Source: Sulfurimonas gotlandica GD1 (GTDB taxonomy: Bacteria > Campylobacterota > Campylobacteria > Campylobacterales > Sulfurimonadaceae). Taken from it: 64,000 bases of DNA. Positions 26,321 to 33,647 of the stretch are shown piece after piece. The number at the start of each line of letters is the position of its first letter. Within the stretch, counting starts at the first letter, position 1. The DNA lies in the NCBI RefSeq assembly GCF_000242915.1, contig NZ_AFRZ01000001.1, positions 2,170,001 through 2,234,000 on the forward strand. Reading direction: 5' to 3'. The notes below the pieces were generated by a model. That model worked only from the letters and a program-made list of their open reading frames with translations. It made no database searches and was not told the origin of the DNA. Position numbers and translations under genes: made by a program.

Positions 26321-28552
26321 ATGAGAATATTTTTAGCAATCTTGCTAGCTCTAATAACAATGAACCTATTTGCTATGACTGTAAAGTCTGTTAACTATGA
26401 AGGAATGGTACACATTTCAAAGCCGGTTGCACTAAGAATGCTTGAGTTTGAAATAGGCGATACAATAGATGATAAAACTCTAGATGAATCAATAAAAAAA
26501 TATTTTAAACAGGGATATTTTGATGATGTTTGGGCTGAGTTTGATGATGGAAATCTAACTTACCACTTTAAAGAAAAAGCTATTATCTCTAAGATTGAAC
26601 TAAAGGGTTGGAAAGAAAACGATAAAGATATTTTAGATAGTGTTGTTCAGATTAAAAAGGGTTCACTTTATGATAAAAAAAAGTTAGAAGCTGCTAAAAA
26701 AAGAATTATAGAAGCGATTAGTCAAGACGGAAAAATTGACAGTGTTGTAGAGGTAGAAGAAGAACTTCTAGACAATGGCAGTATTAAGGTTACCTTCATT
26801 GCAAATGAAGGTAAAGAGATTGTTATAGAAAAGTTAGACTACAGTGGTGTACTTGGTTTAGACAGTGATCTTTTCAATGATGTTATAGCAAATAAAGAGC
26901 ATCAGTTCATGGGTTGGTTTTGGGGACGAAATAACGGAGAGATGAAACTTTCTGATTTAGCGTATGATCCGCTTAGAATTCGTGATACCTATATGCAGTA
27001 TGGGTACTTAGATGCTAAAGTTGATGAACCATTTGTTAGGGTGAATTTTGACCACTACACGGCTGACATGAGTTATCAGATAGAAGAGGGTGAAGTTTAT
27101 CATATTAGCGGTATCTCTATAAATCAAGTTGAGCATGTTATTGCTGATGAAAAGATACGTGAGATAATTAGTTTAGAAAAGGGTGAAGCCTTTAATATTA
27201 AAACTTTTCGTGATGATGCACAAAAAATCAAAACAATTATTGCAGATTTAAGTTACGCTTTTGTTCAAGTTGTTCCTGACCTTAGAAAAAATAAAGAAGA
27301 CCATACTGTTGAAGTTGTATTTAAAATTACGCCTGGTGATAAAGTTAAAATAAGAAATGTAGTAATCTCTGGAAATAACAGAACACTAGATAGAATCATA
27401 CGTAGAGAGCTCTATCTTGGGCCTGGAGATATGTATTCACTAACTGACCTAAAAGACTCCAGAAACTCTTTAGGTAGACTTGGTTTTTTCGATGGAAATA
27501 CAATAGAAGAGAAGAGAATAGATAACTCTAATATGGATCTTGTTGTAAAAGTAAAAGAGGCACCGACCGGTAATATTCAACTTGGTGGTGGATACGGTAG
27601 TTATGGTGGTCTTTTAGTTACAGTTGCAGTAGATGATAGAAATATATGGGGTTCTGGTATCAATATGGGTGTAAAAGCTGAAAAGTCTGAAAAGACTCAG
27701 AATTACTCATTTAATATCTCAAATCCGAGACTAAATGATAGTGACTTTAGCGGTAATTTTTCAATATTTAAATCATTTTATGAATACAATGATTATAGTG
27801 TAGACTCTGATGGTGTAAGCATTGGAACCGGACATAGGTTCTCAAGACATATTAGTGGATACCTAGGTTATAGTTTTTCGAACAATAGTTACAGTGATGT
27901 AGACGCTAACTCTACGGTAGCTAATTCAATATATTTTGAAAGTTATGCAAAAAGTTCTATCGTAATTAGTTCAAAGTTTGATAATACTGATGATTACTAT
28001 CTTCCAAGAGAAGGGTTTGATATAAGTCAGAGTTTTGAGAAATCAGGACTTGGCGCAGATGCTGACTTCTTTAAAAGTAGAACAAATTTTGGTAAATACA
28101 TTGGCTTGGAAGATTATGTTGGTTTCGATGCAATCTTTAGATATAAAGCTAGATTTTATTTTGCTGCAGACACTGGATACTTGCCAATTGCCGATAAATT
28201 TTATATGGGTGGACTTGGAAGTGTTAGAGGTTATGAGTCATATTCCATCTCTCCAGCTGTAGTAGAAAGTGACGGAACTATTAGACGTATTGGTGGGAAA
28301 CAGACTTTTTCTAACAATGTTGAACTTAGTCTTCCTCTTGTACCTAAAGCTAAAATGAGAATGGTCGCATATCTTGACTGGGGATTTATCGGTGATGACT
28401 CTCTTGATGAATTTTCTCGTGGCGGTTATGGTCTAGGTTTAGAGTGGTTCTCTCCAGTTGGACCAATTCAGCTTATGTTTTCGAAACCACTTAATGTGCA
28501 AGACGGAGATAAAACAACTTCTTTCGAGTTTACAATGGGACAGAGATTTTAA
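26321..28552 (+). CDS. bamA: Outer-membrane protein assembly factor BamA
   Basis: Inserts beta-barrel proteins in the outer membrane. The 743-residue product has a signal peptide (IFLAILLALITMNLFAM), five POTRA domains (about 20-415; KISKIELKGW-type and VKIRNVVISGNNRTLDRIIRREL signatures) and a 16-strand barrel with the VRGYESYSISP loop motif (RGY in place of VRGF) and a C-terminal Phe (FEFTMGQRF). The length is normal. A -10-like TATAAC at 26303-26308 lies 13 bases before the ATG with TGGA in between. The end overlaps the ppx/gppA gene by 4 bases on the opposite strand. Confidence 0.94.
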   Translation: MRIFLAILLALITMNLFAMTVKSVNYEGMVHISKPVALRMLEFEIGDTIDDKTLDESIKKYFKQGYFDDVWAEFDDGNLTYHFKEKAIISKIELKGWKENDKDILDSVVQIKKGSLYDKKKLEAAKKRIIEAISQDGKIDSVVEVEEELLDNGSIKVTFIANEGKEIVIEKLDYSGVLGLDSDLFNDVIANKEHQFMGWFWGRNNGEMKLSDLAYDPLRIRDTYMQYGYLDAKVDEPFVRVNFDHYTADMSYQIEEGEVYHISGISINQVEHVIADEKIREIISLEKGEAFNIKTFRDDAQKIKTIIADLSYAFVQVVPDLRKNKEDHTVEVVFKITPGDKVKIRNVVISGNNRTLDRIIRRELYLGPGDMYSLTDLKDSRNSLGRLGFFDGNTIEEKRIDNSNMDLVVKVKEAPTGNIQLGGGYGSYGGLLVTVAVDDRNIWGSGINMGVKAEKSEKTQNYSFNISNPRLNDSDFSGNFSIFKSFYEYNDYSVDSDGVSIGTGHRFSRHISGYLGYSFSNNSYSDVDANSTVANSIYFESYAKSSIVISSKFDNTDDYYLPREGFDISQSFEKSGLGADADFFKSRTNFGKYIGLEDYVGFDAIFRYKARFYFAADTGYLPIADKFYMGGLGSVRGYESYSISPAVVESDGTIRRIGGKQTFSNNVELSLPLVPKAKMRMVAYLDWGFIGDDSLDEFSRGGYGLGLEWFSPVGPIQLMFSKPLNVQDGDKTTSFEFTMGQRF

Positions 28553-30009
28553 AATATAACTTTTAAATTCTCTATTCTCTCTAATTTATTTACAGACTCT
28601 CTACATAAACGAAGTGACTCTTTTGAGTCTATCTTTAATACACCATCATTAAAAATTAACTCAAAGTCAATATTTCTAGGTCTATGCGCTACAAGAGATA
28701 CACTAAGAGACAGGATATAACTAAGAGCATATAGAGTTTTTTGTTCAGGTAAGAGCTCACGATACTTTTGCATATGTGAAGGTGATGGTAGTTTCTTTTT
28801 TGCATATTTACATAGAGTGGATATCAGAGTAATTTGATTATGCGTAAATCCATATTCCAATGCACTTTGCAGTATGTAATAGCTGTGTTTATTTTTAGAG
28901 AAAAAGTGTATATCATTTCCACAAGGGTATAGTTTAGCAGCAAGGCTTAAATCTTTACGAAAAGATTTATCAATGCCTAAATGTTTATGTGTGATGTCAA
29001 AAATCTTTTTTGCAAGTGAATTTAATTGTATTGCTATACCTTTTTCACTTACGTGAGAGTCTAGAATATATCTTGCTGAACTATTATAGTGCTCAGGAAA
29101 CTTGTCTTTTGAACCTCTTAATAGATCTGCAAGAAAAGCACCTTCCCTTACTCCCACACCGCTTGTTATTACTTTTTCTATTGATAGTTTTTTTAGAACT
29201 CTTTGAAGTATTAGAGCTCCTGGCTTAATAATATCAAATCTTTCATCCTTGATACCAAGATTAGTAAGTTCTTCCTCGTCAGCTTTCATTATTGAAGATA
29301 TAAAGTTATCTAATTCAGTGCCTGTATAAGAGAATGCATGAAGTTTGTTTAAAGGATGTTCTTTATTATCCATTATAGCATTGGATATTGCTCTGAAAGT
29401 TCCACCAATACCAATTAGTGTTTTAGCTTGTATGCCATCAAGAACTTCTAGTTTTGCATCAATGTATTTTATTGCTTCACTCTTGTTTTTGTCATCACAA
29501 AACAGTTCTTTTAATCTTACAGTACCTAAGTTTAGTGATAGGGTATTTGAGACATCTTTATCATTGATGAGGGCTAGTTCGGTTGAACCACCCCCTATAT
29601 CTATACTTAGCGCATTTTTTTGAGTAGGCAGAAGATTCGCACAGGCAATTGCACCTAAGTAAGCTTCTTTTTCACCATTAATAATTTTTATATTTAGATT
29701 TAATTCCTCTTTTGCTCTTAAGAGGAATTCTTTTTTGTTTGGTGCATCTCGTAAGGCAGAAGTAGCGACACATAAAGTTTTTCTTGCTTTATATGAAGCT
29801 ATGATGCTTAGAAAGTCTTTTAATGCATCTAAAGTTCTTTGCATAGGAATCTCTTGAAGATTACCATCATTTTGGTAAGCATTTTCAGAGAGTCTTACTT
29901 TACTCTTTGATTCATTAAGCAGATGAAATGCAAAACGAGAAGTCTTTTCATAGACTACTAATCTAACTGAGTTAGAACCTATGTCTATTACCGCTACACG
30001 TTTTGCCAT
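28549..30009 (-). CDS. Exopolyphosphatase / guanosine pentaphosphate phosphatase
   Basis: Degrades polyphosphate or pppGpp. The 486-residue protein has the actin-like ASKHA fold: phosphate loop 1 VAVIDIGSNSVRLVVYE, the second nucleotide motif ALSIDIGGGSTELALI and LIGIGGTFRAIS. The C-terminal half (about 310-486) is a helical HD-like region with STLCKYAKKK. Ppx and GppA cannot be told apart from sequence alone. It lies 11 bases after the ferredoxin gene on the same strand. Confidence 0.9.
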   Translation of the reverse strand: MAKRVAVIDIGSNSVRLVVYEKTSRFAFHLLNESKSKVRLSENAYQNDGNLQEIPMQRTLDALKDFLSIIASYKARKTLCVATSALRDAPNKKEFLLRAKEELNLNIKIINGEKEAYLGAIACANLLPTQKNALSIDIGGGSTELALINDKDVSNTLSLNLGTVRLKELFCDDKNKSEAIKYIDAKLEVLDGIQAKTLIGIGGTFRAISNAIMDNKEHPLNKLHAFSYTGTELDNFISSIMKADEEELTNLGIKDERFDIIKPGALILQRVLKKLSIEKVITSGVGVREGAFLADLLRGSKDKFPEHYNSSARYILDSHVSEKGIAIQLNSLAKKIFDITHKHLGIDKSFRKDLSLAAKLYPCGNDIHFFSKNKHSYYILQSALEYGFTHNQITLISTLCKYAKKKLPSPSHMQKYRELLPEQKTLYALSYILSLSVSLVAHRPRNIDFELIFNDGVLKIDSKESLRLCRESVNKLERIENLKVIF

Positions 30010-30020
30010 ATATGTAGACT

Positions 30021-30272
30021 TTAATCTTCGTTTTCTAAATTTCTAGATTTAAATTGAAGTTCCGCAATAGATTCTACATTATCTTTATCTAAAACAATAC
30101 AATCAACAGGACAAACTGATATACAGGCTGGTTCATCATAAACACCTACACATTCAGTACATCTGTCTGGGTCTATATAGTAAATTGGATCACCCTCTTC
30201 GATAGCCATTGTAGGACACTCTTCGCGACATGCGTCACAAGCAATACATTCATCATTAATTAATAGAGCCAT
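30021..30272 (-). CDS. Ferredoxin with two [4Fe-4S] clusters
   Basis: An 83-residue electron carrier. The first cluster motif is CIACDACREECP, and the second is CTECVGVYDEPACISVCP, with eight residues between the second and third Cys as in YfhL/Allochromatium-type ferredoxins. Its low-potential partners are unknown. AAGG lies before the ATG. It is the first gene of a two-gene unit with ppx/gppA. Confidence 0.94.
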   Translation of the reverse strand: MALLINDECIACDACREECPTMAIEEGDPIYYIDPDRCTECVGVYDEPACISVCPVDCIVLDKDNVESIAELQFKSRNLENED

Positions 30273-30373: not shown

Positions 30374-31672
30374 TTATCTTTTTGGTAGTAAGCAAGACAA
30401 TTTAGAATTTATTTCAAGTGAAGATATCGTACCGTCTATTCCATCATCTCTATTCTTTATATTTATCTTTGCTCCTAATGCGTCTGCGGCGCTTTTAGCT
30501 AAGAACAACCCTAGACCAACACCAGACTTGTTTCCTTGTCTTTTAAACGGTGCAAATAGGTCTACACTCTCATCAATACCACAGCCCTCATCTATAACTT
30601 CAATAAGTAGTCCATATTCACTCTGGCAGCTTCTAAGTGTAACCGATTTATCTTTTTCAGTGAACTTTATAGCATTTTGCAGGAAGTTTTGAACTATCTG
30701 GTTAAGAAGAGATACCTGCATAGTTGCCATAAAACCATTTGGCTCAAAATGCATGTGTAAATCTTTTCCATCATTTTCTGCTAAAAGTTTGAAATCATTT
30801 GCCTTTTCACGAAGAAAGGCTATAACATCAACTTCAACAGGTTTTTCCAACTGTGCTCCCTCTTGACGGCCGATGTTAAGAATATTAGATACTATGATAT
30901 TCATCTCATCAATAGTTTTATTTGTTGTCTTTAAGGCATCTATATACTCTTCAGGACTTCTTTTTTTAATTAGAGTTACCTGATTTTTAAGTTTTATTAC
31001 TGCAAGTGGAGTTTTTAATTCATGAGCAGTTCCTATAAAGAGTTCTTTCTGATACTTGACAAAGTTCTGTATTCTAGCAATAAGGTGGTTGATTGTGCTC
31101 CCTAATGGTTCAAACTCTTCTGGAAGCTCTTTAACCTTTATAGGCCTCATAAGATGCTCATTCATATTAGAGAGTCTTGAACTAATTGTTTGAATTGGAG
31201 TGATGAGCATTTTTGATAGTGCAATTGCATAAACGATTACTAGTATGAAACCTACAATATTAATAATAAATATATAACGAAGGATTTTAGCTAAGAGTTT
31301 TTTTGTAGGTGTTATATCTCTTGTTATTTTTAAATAGCTTAATTCATCAAAATTAAATGGGTATACAAGTGTTAGGTATGTGTGTCTTTTTTTTGTACTC
31401 TCATAAAGGTCTATATCTTGGTTTAGTTTTTTTATATGAATGATTTCAACATCTATTCCCAGTACTGTATCTGGCGTGTCCGGATCAATTTGCACTAGTG
31501 ATTGGTTGTTAGCTATATTCTTTGCATATTGAATCAATTCTTGATGTTTTTCATCATATATTGAGTTTTCAATATATAGATACAAAAAAGATGAGAATAT
31601 AAATATGAGCGACGCCGAAGCAAATATAAGTTGGATTAGAAAATTTCTTCTAATACTTCTTTTTGTAAACAT
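30374..31672 (-). CDS. Sensor histidine kinase, partner of the HsrA/CosR-like regulator
   Basis: A 432-residue kinase. Membrane helices (about 13-33 and 132-155) enclose a small periplasmic sensor region. A HAMP-like linker follows, then the H-box FIGTAHELKTPLAVIK (His about 217) and an ATPase domain with FLQNAIKF, IDEGCGID, FAPFKRQGNKSGVGLGLFLAK. All kinase boxes are intact. It lies downstream of the regulator on the same strand with a 157-base gap that holds a repeat element. The ligand is unknown. Confidence 0.9.
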   Translation of the reverse strand: MFTKRSIRRNFLIQLIFASASLIFIFSSFLYLYIENSIYDEKHQELIQYAKNIANNQSLVQIDPDTPDTVLGIDVEIIHIKKLNQDIDLYESTKKRHTYLTLVYPFNFDELSYLKITRDITPTKKLLAKILRYIFIINIVGFILVIVYAIALSKMLITPIQTISSRLSNMNEHLMRPIKVKELPEEFEPLGSTINHLIARIQNFVKYQKELFIGTAHELKTPLAVIKLKNQVTLIKKRSPEEYIDALKTTNKTIDEMNIIVSNILNIGRQEGAQLEKPVEVDVIAFLREKANDFKLLAENDGKDLHMHFEPNGFMATMQVSLLNQIVQNFLQNAIKFTEKDKSVTLRSCQSEYGLLIEVIDEGCGIDESVDLFAPFKRQGNKSGVGLGLFLAKSAADALGAKINIKNRDDGIDGTISSLEINSKLSCLLPKR

Positions 31673-31738
31673 TTATTACCTTGATATAAATTATACGCAA
31701 TTATATCCTAGTATATTAAAATAAAAAGAGAGTGTTTG

Positions 31739-31822
31739 ATGAAATTATTGCCCAAAGGCGAAGCTTTAGTGCCTAAACGGCTAGCAAAGCGAAATGGAAG
31801 TGAATTCCTTTTCGCGTTTTAA
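31739..31822 (+). repeat. Dispersed element copy 1, with a 27-codon reading frame
   Basis: It shares ATGAAATTATT, then a short variable part, then AGGCG-A/T-AGCTTTAGTG with 38607-38690. The frame begins MKLLPKGEALV and runs 27 codons to TAA. Its right half folds as GCGAAA (31789-31794) with TTTCGC (31810-31815). It lies on the plus strand in the gap between the minus-strand regulator and kinase genes. Whether it is translated is unknown; it may be only an RNA or DNA element. Confidence 0.5.
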
Positions 31823-31829
31823 ATAATAT

Positions 31830-32504
31830 TTAGTTGATTTCTTTTGGGAAACAAAAACGGTAACCACGACGACGAACTGTCTCAATAGTTGTAATATTTA
31901 ATGGTTTATCCATTTTTTGTCTAATCTGATTAATCGCAACTTCAATAACATTTGGAGTTACTAGTTCCGGTTCTTCCCAGATTGCGTCAAGAAGTTGTTC
32001 TTTAGAAACAATTTGATCACGGTGACGAGCAAGGTGAGTTAGAACTTCAAAAGGTTTACCCTTAAGCTCAATTTCTTGTTCTTTGTAAGTGATTTTTTCT
32101 TCTTCAGGATTGATTATTAAATCTTCAATTTCGATAATATTGCTTCCGCCAAAACGAAGACGAGCTTCAATACGTGCAATTAAAACATCAAAGTCAAAAG
32201 GTTTTCTGATATAGTCATCAGCACCACTTCTAAGAGCTTCAATTTCACTTTCGTTATCATCTCTTGCAGATAAAACAACTACAGCTGTTTTTGGAGTATT
32301 TGTTTTGATATCACCAATGATATCTATTGCGTTCCCATCTGGAAGCATCCAATCCATTAAAACTAAATCATAATTACGAATGTCAAGATAGTACTCTCCA
32401 TCTTTAAGAGTTTCTACTGCATCGCTCTGGTAACCAAATTCTTTTAGTCCCTCAGTAAGCATTTTGTTTAATGTTACTTCATCTTCTATAATAAGAATGC
32501 GCAT
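31830..32504 (-). CDS. OmpR-family response regulator, HsrA/CosR orthologue with intact phosphorylation site
   Basis: A 224-residue DNA-binding regulator. The C-terminal half (KGKPFEVLTHLARHRDQIV, then SKEQLLDAIWEEPELVTPNV, then RRRGYRFCFPK) is nearly the sequence I recall for Helicobacter HsrA (HP1043) and Campylobacter CosR. Those proteins lack a normal phosphorylation pocket. Here it is complete: E7/D8 (LIIEDE), D51 (LVLMDWMLPDG), S79 and K101 (IRKPF). AGGAC precedes the ATG. A histidine kinase gene follows on the same strand. Confidence 0.9.
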   Translation of the reverse strand: MRILIIEDEVTLNKMLTEGLKEFGYQSDAVETLKDGEYYLDIRNYDLVLMDWMLPDGNAIDIIGDIKTNTPKTAVVVLSARDDNESEIEALRSGADDYIRKPFDFDVLIARIEARLRFGGSNIIEIEDLIINPEEEKITYKEQEIELKGKPFEVLTHLARHRDQIVSKEQLLDAIWEEPELVTPNVIEVAINQIRQKMDKPLNITTIETVRRRGYRFCFPKEIN

Positions 32505-32604
32505 TAATTTGTCCTATAAGTGAATATTTTGGCGGAATGATATCATAATTTTAGCTTACTTTAAAGAAAAATTCAATTATTTTTAATAATTCTTTAACTT
32601 ATAA

Positions 32605-32934
32605 TTAAGATTGGGATTTGTATGAATTACTCACACTTACCTTGCAGTCGGGTAAAATCGATGGTTTTGTTATCTTTATATTCATGCTTTTTATGGATGA
32701 ATATTCTTTAATTAACTTTAAATTTAGGTAATCTAAAGCATCTTCAATGAGTAAAAACTCACTTTTTATCATAACATCTTTGATTTTTTGAACAATATCT
32801 GCATAATTTAAGAAGTTTTTTTCATACTTATAATCTAGAGTAAGATTTATAACTACATCTTGAGGATTTTGCCTTTCAAAATCTAAAATTCCAATAATAC
32901 ATTGAAATTTTAGGTCTTCTATATGAATAGTCAC
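32605..32934 (-). CDS. folB: Dihydroneopterin aldolase-like protein
   Basis: A 109-residue folate-pathway enzyme that cleaves dihydroneopterin. It starts MTIHIEDLKFQCIIGILDFERQ, has NLTLDY, LIEDALDYL (catalytic-helix region) and KPSILPDCKVSVS, as in short FolB proteins. The start is GTG and overlaps the plsY stop codon by one base, so translation is coupled. The family is somewhat divergent; folK is found elsewhere in the window. Confidence 0.82.
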   Translation of the reverse strand: MTIHIEDLKFQCIIGILDFERQNPQDVVINLTLDYKYEKNFLNYADIVQKIKDVMIKSEFLLIEDALDYLNLKLIKEYSSIKSMNIKITKPSILPDCKVSVSNSYKSQS

Positions 32935-33548
32935 TAAACTACTCTTTTCTCTTCACCTTTAAAAAGACGAATAATATTTGGAATATGCTTATAGTAAAGG
33001 ATAAATACAATAAAGACTACTGGAGCATGTGCCATATCTGGATGAATGAAAAAGCTAGATATTAAAAGAGCTGCTACACCAGTTAGTGACGAAATAGAAG
33101 ATATACGTATAGTCTTTGCCCCAACTGCCCAGACAATTAGAGCGATAATTGTTTCATATGGAAGCATGAACATCATAACACCCATACCTGTAGCGATACC
33201 TTTGCCACCTTCAAGACCTAAGTAAGGGCTGAAACAGTGACCAATTACAGCTAAAACTGCAATTCCCCAGAGGGTAGCTTCACTAAGTCCTGTAAAATAA
33301 GCAACCGCTAAAACTAAAATACCTTTAAAAGCATCGAGAGCTAAAGTAGCAGCTCCTAATTTTTTTGCTAAAGAAGGGTTAGTCTCTTTTACGACTCTAA
33401 GCACATTTGTTGCACCTATACTGCCGCTTCCACTTGCTTTAATATCTACACCGGCAAACTTCTTTGCAAGAAGCAGACCAAATGGAATACCGCCTACAAG
33501 ATAAGCTGCTATAAAAAATTGTACGTTTGTGTTAAATAAAAATTCCAT
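32934..33548 (-). CDS. plsY: Glycerol-3-phosphate acyltransferase PlsY
   Basis: Inner-membrane enzyme that transfers acyl groups from acyl-phosphate to glycerol-3-phosphate, the first step of phospholipid synthesis. The 204-residue product has five helices and all three family motifs: GGIPFGLLLAK, GSGSIGATNVLR and GHCFSPYLGLEGGKGIAT. The ATG at 33548 has AAGG six bases before it. Confidence 0.93.
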   Translation of the reverse strand: MEFLFNTNVQFFIAAYLVGGIPFGLLLAKKFAGVDIKASGSGSIGATNVLRVVKETNPSLAKKLGAATLALDAFKGILVLAVAYFTGLSEATLWGIAVLAVIGHCFSPYLGLEGGKGIATGMGVMMFMLPYETIIALIVWAVGAKTIRISSISSLTGVAALLISSFFIHPDMAHAPVVFIVFILYYKHIPNIIRLFKGEEKRVV

Positions 33549-33647
33549 CAAATACCTTATATATTAATTCTGACATTTTACTTTACATATAGTTATAACT
33601 ATATAAAATTCGATATAATTACAAAATTATATATTAAGGGTTATTTG

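Follow-up and report, generated by a model that had tools for sequence, protein, structure and literature searches.

A probable CosRS two-component system in Sulfurimonas gotlandica and probable recurrent loss of its kinase within Campylobacteria

Here we describe a gene pair in the window, a 64,000-nucleotide stretch of the Sulfurimonas gotlandica GD1 genome, which is very probably a CosRS two-component system working by the mechanism proposed below, identity and mechanism being judged jointly. The kinase CosS, an inner-membrane protein with a small periplasmic sensor, would autophosphorylate at H217 and hand its phosphoryl group on to D51 in the response regulator CosR, which would in turn tune transcription from operators of the TTTAAG-N5-TTTAAG type, including a site in the cosR promoter. 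In this scheme DNA-binding output would form a conserved and probably essential core, and the kinase a dispensable, modulatory input. Loss of the kinase would have occurred at least six times in Campylobacteria, usually followed by decay of the receiver, with kinase-independent regulators such as Helicobacter pylori HsrA and Campylobacter jejuni CosR as the end products.

HsrA and CosR are reported to be essential and to be drug targets in two major pathogens, which raises the question of how they act without a kinase. The two-component form was published in 2014, which rules out a claim of first finding for the pair: Hwang et al. named the kinase CosS, encoded beside cosR in non-thermotolerant Campylobacter, described cosS homologues in Wolinella succinogenes, Arcobacter butzleri, Sulfurospirillum deleyianum and Helicobacter pullorum, demonstrated that C. 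fetus CosS transfers its phosphoryl group to the CosR of the same species, noted the replacement of D51 in thermotolerant Campylobacter species, and found that in C. fetus cosS could be deleted, with normal growth of the mutants, whereas cosR knockouts were not obtained (PMC3938529, available in part). No mention of Sulfurimonas was found in the available part of that paper. Nor was a class-wide phylogeny of kinase loss found among the literature matches listed, as available in part (including PMC9449129, PMC10936212, PMC11334517, PMC11432330, PMC4395418, PMC12632262, and PMC2147049), a scope outside which preprints and most of the subscription literature lie. The window pair, probably a normal and functional CosRS judging from its sequence, is new for S. 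gotlandica and belongs to a known type of system; the new part is the class-wide distribution of kinase and pocket, the count of losses, and the operator motif across families. This distribution provides an evolutionary answer for Helicobacter, the C. jejuni relatives, and Sulfurovum, and the free-living kinase-bearing relatives, together with three intermediate genera, make signal, phosphorylation effect, and basal activity directly comparable.

The gene pair and its locus

The features discussed are as follows (window coordinates, with the basis of each assignment in brackets).

28549-30009, minus strand: Ppx/GppA-like gene, conserved neighbour (open reading frame, locus comparison)
30021-30272, minus strand: small ferredoxin gene (fdx), conserved neighbour, downstream (open reading frame, locus comparison)
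30374-31672, minus strand: cosS, membrane sensor histidine kinase of 432 aa (open reading frame, Pfam, alignment, model)
31673-31829, minus strand: cosR-cosS spacer of 157 nt with a foldable hairpin (z -2.7)
31830-32504, minus strand: cosR, OmpR/PhoB-type response regulator of 224 aa, HsrA/CosR orthologue (open reading frame, PDB, domain, pocket, tree)
32549-32566, no strand assigned: candidate HsrA-type operator of two boxes spaced 11 bp, immediately preceding a TATGAT (-10-like) when read on the strand of the gene (motif, conservation)
32582-32609, no strand assigned: further array of HsrA-type boxes, three hexamers at 11-bp intervals, sharing a few bases with the folB 3' end (motif)
32605-32934, minus strand: folB, conserved neighbour upstream of cosR (domain search, locus comparison)
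32934-33551, minus strand: plsY-like gene, conserved neighbour (open reading frame, locus comparison)

The minus-strand order is plsY, folB, cosR, cosS, fdx, and the Ppx/GppA-like gene, the names plsY, fdx, and ppx being provisional. The locus plsY-folB-cosR-[cosS]-fdx-ppx recurs across most families, with cosS present or missing; fdx directly follows cosR in the Nautiliaceae, C. jejuni-like, and Sulfurovum-like loci without cosS, and the neighbours of cosR are not kept in families f2 (Helicobacter, Wolinella) and f7.

The earlier note had proposed, from the letters of the window, a regulator with a DNA-binding half near that of HsrA and CosR and a receiver with a complete pocket, followed on the same strand by a complete histidine kinase with its His at about 217, and each of these points was borne out. 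The top PDB sequence matches of the window CosR are C. jejuni CosR entries (8uvx, E 1e-110; 8uuz, E 3.5e-110), and H. pylori HP1043/HsrA (2hqr) matches at E 1.8e-86; 8uvx, 8uvk, and 8uuz are CosR structures (PMC10936212, available in part). Against an H. pylori-type orthologue (L250), 83 of 98 residues are identical in the DNA-binding part (125-222) and 50 of 115 in the receiver (1-115), the corresponding values for a C. jejuni-like orthologue (L214) being 90/98 and 66/115. All five pocket residues (E7, D8, D51, S79, K101) are found in the alignment, so the receiver has the canonical form and falls outside the Asp-less atypical class, which is defined by loss of the Asp or of other pocket residues.

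CosS carries HisKA and HATPase_c domains, both over the Pfam cut-offs, and its catalytic set (His, N box, G boxes) is complete (H217, N329, N333, G363, G386, G388). Each of these residues, as well as G384, recurs in 98% or more of the 58 extra-family homologues aligned, two of which are fragments, and H217 is invariant among 45 aligned Sulfurimonas-type CosS proteins. The layout comprises a transmembrane helix (~10-34), a periplasmic part (~37-120), a second transmembrane helix (~134-155), a HAMP-like linker, a DHp domain with H217, and a CA domain to ~415, the membrane and linker limits being drawn by eye from sequence and model. The top-ranking PDB matches of the whole-protein model (mean pLDDT 68.8, pTM 0.40) are histidine kinases with few exceptions. 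Conservation is lowest in the periplasmic part (mean commonest-residue frequency 0.33 vs 0.75 in the DHp). Modelled alone (mean pLDDT 75.5), this part folds as one helix plus four strands, flanked by the membrane helices, and comes structurally closest to extracytoplasmic sensor domains, among them those of WalK (Z 8.3, rmsd 3.1, 97 aligned) and TlpB, at Z values of ~8 that are near noise level. The sensor domain is small and fast-evolving, and at most weakly PAS/Cache-like; a Foldseek search with it gave no hit under E 0.001, so that its fold offers no pointer to the signal of CosS. In genus g7 (G005, G033, G110, G178) CosS scores just 154-178 bits, with a match that begins only at about residue 104 in three of the four genomes, a pattern of partial matches that suggests a sensor part replaced or shrunken.

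Only 2 of 200 shuffles of the spacer (31673-31829) fold as well as its hairpin, and a simple scan revealed no terminator-like site in it. As the spacer is single-copy in the genome, a genome-wide repeat is ruled out. Gaps of ~35-250 nt and no overlap separate cosR and cosS in the named Sulfurimonas loci; in 45 of 66 loci the two genes are predicted to overlap, with cosS beginning 22 nt ahead of the cosR end (start codons assumed). With a spacer in place of an overlap, the two genes may be unequally transcribed in named Sulfurimonas. G133, which belongs to the window's family, has an antisense open frame of 1028 aa (L274, 4297-7383) between cosR and cosS. In two Sulfurimonas MAGs (L129, 6717-11709; L132, 3881-4983), cosR is followed by an Rrf2-like regulator and respiratory-type genes, as judged by eye, and cosS lies elsewhere.

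Kinase and receiver pocket across the class

The regulator was matched in 298/298 genomes of the class (58 genera, E 1e-45 or better) and in 397/397 genomes of the phylum, window included (68 genera, with a best E of at most 1.4e-54 per genome), a universal presence that fits with cosR probably being essential for viability in Sulfurimonas. Loci were taken from 131 further genomes over 58 genera and 13 families, along with 9 second copies or paralogues. With the window, this first set of 132 genomes included 69 with CosS, all with a full pocket, and 63 without, among which 52 had lost D51, 7 Nautiliaceae had D51 with K or R at position 8, and 4 were intact. Thirty extra genomes, chosen for new genera and for exceptions, added 15 with CosS, again all with a full pocket (in G348, CosS lies on another contig), and 15 without (5 with D51 lost, 2 Nautiliaceae, 8 with a full pocket). 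Over the combined 162 genomes the pocket was full in 84/84 with CosS, and the 78 without CosS comprised 57 with D51 lost, 9 Nautiliaceae (K/R for D8, D51 kept), and 12 with a full pocket. Not one of the 162 genomes paired CosS with a broken pocket. The names used for g49, g14, g18, g44, and the Nautiliaceae are our presumption, resting partly on identity to published proteins and not on labels.

The 12 pocket-intact genomes without CosS belong to genera g33 (n=3), g34 (n=6), and g54 (n=3). Absence is firm in two g34 genomes (G128, G149), as both assemblies are single contigs; those of g33 and g54 are drafts of 30-170 contigs, and in one g33 locus (L162) another gene begins right at the end of cosR. 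In the genome-wide kinase search the best piece of CosS scored at least 154 bits and other kinases at most 75 bits. The idea of a relocated kinase in the orphan genomes was rejected on this search, which covered 131 distinct genomes, 51 with CosS and 80 without; for 7 of the 63 kinase-less representatives (G042, G051, G070, G080, G148, G227, G281) the call is based on the locus. Where CosS was found, it lies 3.5 kb from cosR behind the inserted antisense gene in G133, and is apparently split over contigs in G210. A C. jejuni-like genome (G173, L220) with a frame-broken cosR, odd for an essential gene and perhaps a sequencing error, was counted as kinase-less with D51 lost and excluded from identity averages. 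Among named Sulfurimonas loci, cosS lies downstream of cosR in 78/80 (one frame-broken, three cut by contig ends) and elsewhere, at 79% identity, in the other 2, and the CosR pocket is full in 80/80. A search for plasmid-borne cosR gave no match at E 1e-60.

Proposed kinase loss and receiver decay, and alternative readings

Mapped on an RpoB tree of 70 genomes (a single gene, rooted by choice on the Nautiliaceae, with 16 of 67 inner branches below 80 support, and built without 9 of the 79 genomes in which rpoB was located), the kinase state shows seven changes, namely six losses within other families (the main Helicobacter group, G034, g33, C. jejuni-like g14, g54, and Sulfurovum-like g49) and one at the Nautiliaceae split. 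Matched independent pairs changed in the same direction in 4.6 of 6 cases for kinase versus full pocket (median p 0.0625) and in 3.6 of 6 for kinase versus D51 (median p 0.125), none in the opposite direction, values that are not significant as the pairs are too few to reach 0.05. The CosS tree (G008 and G087 rows omitted as too short) groups by family with the smallest possible number of changes (10), which favours vertical inheritance over repeated gain. These data support the view that the orphans of Helicobacter, the C. jejuni-like group, and Sulfurovum descend from an ancestor with the kinase. The earlier note had held that orphan forms arose by loss of a kinase and had called for a family phylogeny with the kinase mapped; the idea stands for these lineages, with at least six losses within the kinase-bearing part of the tree, and for the whole class is tempered by the Nautiliaceae.

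We lean towards the two-component form being ancestral for the whole class. The tree does not fix the root state, since the rooting family, the Nautiliaceae, lacks the kinase and has an altered pocket at the same locus; no outgroup from beyond the window's order was present among the 397 phylum genomes, going by labels. It is therefore possible, if rather doubtful, that the last common ancestor carried a kinase-free cosR and that CosS was recruited once, in the stem lineage of the remaining families, and then repeatedly lost. Such a history agrees with Nautiliaceae cosR lying at the same locus directly before fdx, with CosS absent genome-wide in 9/9, and with K/R for D8 in 9/9 (G224 lacks E7 too). 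However, D51, S79, and K101 are kept in 9/9, most easily explained as a relic of a phosphorylated ancestor, and the Nautiliaceae receiver ranks with the most diverged ones (40% mean identity with the consensus of kinase-bearing genomes, 7 genomes), like those of other decayed lineages. Recruitment of CosS would be compatible with a CosRS system in the window, denying only the class-wide ancestry of the pair.

Two further readings concern the window pair itself. That its regulator is a generic OmpR-type protein with a superficial likeness to HsrA and CosR has a negligible probability: although OmpR-type regulators have common folds and the host genome (2.95 Mb, a single contig, with most of its closest named relatives, 80 loci, bearing the label Sulfurimonas) contains 30 Trans_reg_C matches, the DNA-binding domain is 88-92% identical to three C. 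jejuni-like orthologues and the best OmpR-type paralogues in the same genome reach just 29-32% identity to the window protein, which argues against mere generic likeness. The CosR protein tree, for which a placement outside the HsrA/CosR clade had been named beforehand as the adverse outcome, groups the window protein inside, with 64 CosR-family rows (the window's included) split at support 100 from 8 paralogues; owing to several flagged long branches, the inner order of the decayed rows is unsure. It also seems improbable that the adjacent kinase serves another regulator and that CosR is phosphorylation-independent in Sulfurimonas too. HsrA is reported to function without phosphorylation, the C. 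fetus cosS mutants grew normally (PMC3938529, available in part), and cosR and cosS are spaced apart in named Sulfurimonas loci, all of which would suit a different partner. Against this, the pocket is broken only where CosS is missing, never in the 84 genomes that have it, the 22-nt overlap is inferred in most of the loci compared, and phosphotransfer between the two proteins is known from C. fetus. We thus prefer the CosRS reading, under which CosS would phosphorylate CosR in S. gotlandica.

Position 51 in the 63 kinase-less genomes is N in 16, S in 15, D in 11, G in 8, deleted in 7, A in 2, E in 2, H in 1, and K in 1. Mean receiver identity to the kinase-bearing consensus is 81% with CosS (68 genomes), 70% without CosS and with an intact pocket (4), and 53% with D51 lost (51), the DNA-binding part having 92, 94, and 89% in the same three groups. 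Pocket and kinase counts and this identity gradient fit an order in which the kinase was lost first, the receiver decayed second, and the output was retained. Genera g33, g34, and g54, with their intact pockets and absent CosS, may be living intermediates. Read as a natural replay, an essential two-component system would have become kinase-free six or more times in this one order, the pocket decaying by varied routes and operator and autoregulation being retained. It would follow that the output was already largely phosphorylation-independent before the kinase was lost and that the mechanism of the orphans is an old basal activity, not a novelty, a proposal to which we give an even chance.

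Candidate operator and relation to orphan regulators

The HsrA consensus is TTTAAG-N5-TTTAAG (PMC5253667, PMC8345958, both available in part), and HsrA reportedly modulates its own expression (PMC11432330, available in part). The candidate at 32549-32566 is highly conserved in 80 Sulfurimonas upstream regions (the window and 79 named loci), the most conserved upstream stretch lying just before the TATGAT-like -10, in the position expected of an activator; it is predicted to be an autoregulatory site of CosR. A scan for the consensus with at most 2 mismatches within 110 bp upstream, with expectations from dinucleotide shuffles, found it before cosR in 79/79 named Sulfurimonas (expected 13.8; 78/79 or 79/79 by start-codon choice, one of the 80 loci being unused) versus 14/389 other genes (expected 28.9). 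Over 13 families the counts were 112/131 (expected 18.9) versus 36/430 (expected 35.3), upstream regions of related genomes being non-independent samples. Set against the consensus, as had been called for, most genomes have a candidate site before cosR and 19/131 have none, among them 12/47 in f2 and 4/7 in the Nautiliaceae. In the latter the motif is weak, occurring in 3/7 (expected 0.8), or 6/7 by an alternative start choice, versus 5/22 other genes (expected 2.0). It occurs upstream of cosR with and without the kinase (f3, 14/14 and 10/10; f4, 9/9 and 4/4; f2, 3/5 and 32/42), which suggests that output was kept while input was discarded. The whole window is not enriched for the motif (23 found vs 34.3 expected), 3 of these 23 matches sitting just upstream of cosR. 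Very weak binding of C. fetus CosR to the target promoters of C. jejuni CosR (PMC3938529, available in part) calls for caution in equating the operators of kinase-bearing and orphan forms.

The pair shares with C. fetus CosRS its genes and their order, receiver D51, and a kinase with a phospho-acceptor His (PMC3938529, available in part), and differs in its intergenic spacer. H. pylori HsrA/HP1043 is likewise an orthologue, with 83 of 98 identical residues in the DNA-binding part and its type of consensus found upstream of the window cosR, but is an orphan in which the loop around D51 is deleted and D8 replaced by K (as in L250); the genome-wide kinase search found no CosS in an H. pylori-type genome (G045). 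C. jejuni CosR, also an orthologue, shares the locus plsY-folB-cosR-fdx-ppx, but has N or S for D51 and lacks cosS; among the C. jejuni-like genomes searched (9 + 7 more), cosS was found neither at the locus nor elsewhere.

Some genomes carry additional CosR-like proteins. Alongside CosRS, two f6 loci (L200, L202) encode a second one without an adjacent kinase, its DNA-binding part ~83% and its receiver ~32% like the consensus, with E7 and K101 lost, and a second match of 59% lies at G394:C1:28438-29121; from their sequences these look like an orphan born by duplication beside an intact pair. Diverged second copies with altered pockets were also observed in L172 and L185 (f9), L153 (f13), and L189 (f7), in genomes that also have CosRS.
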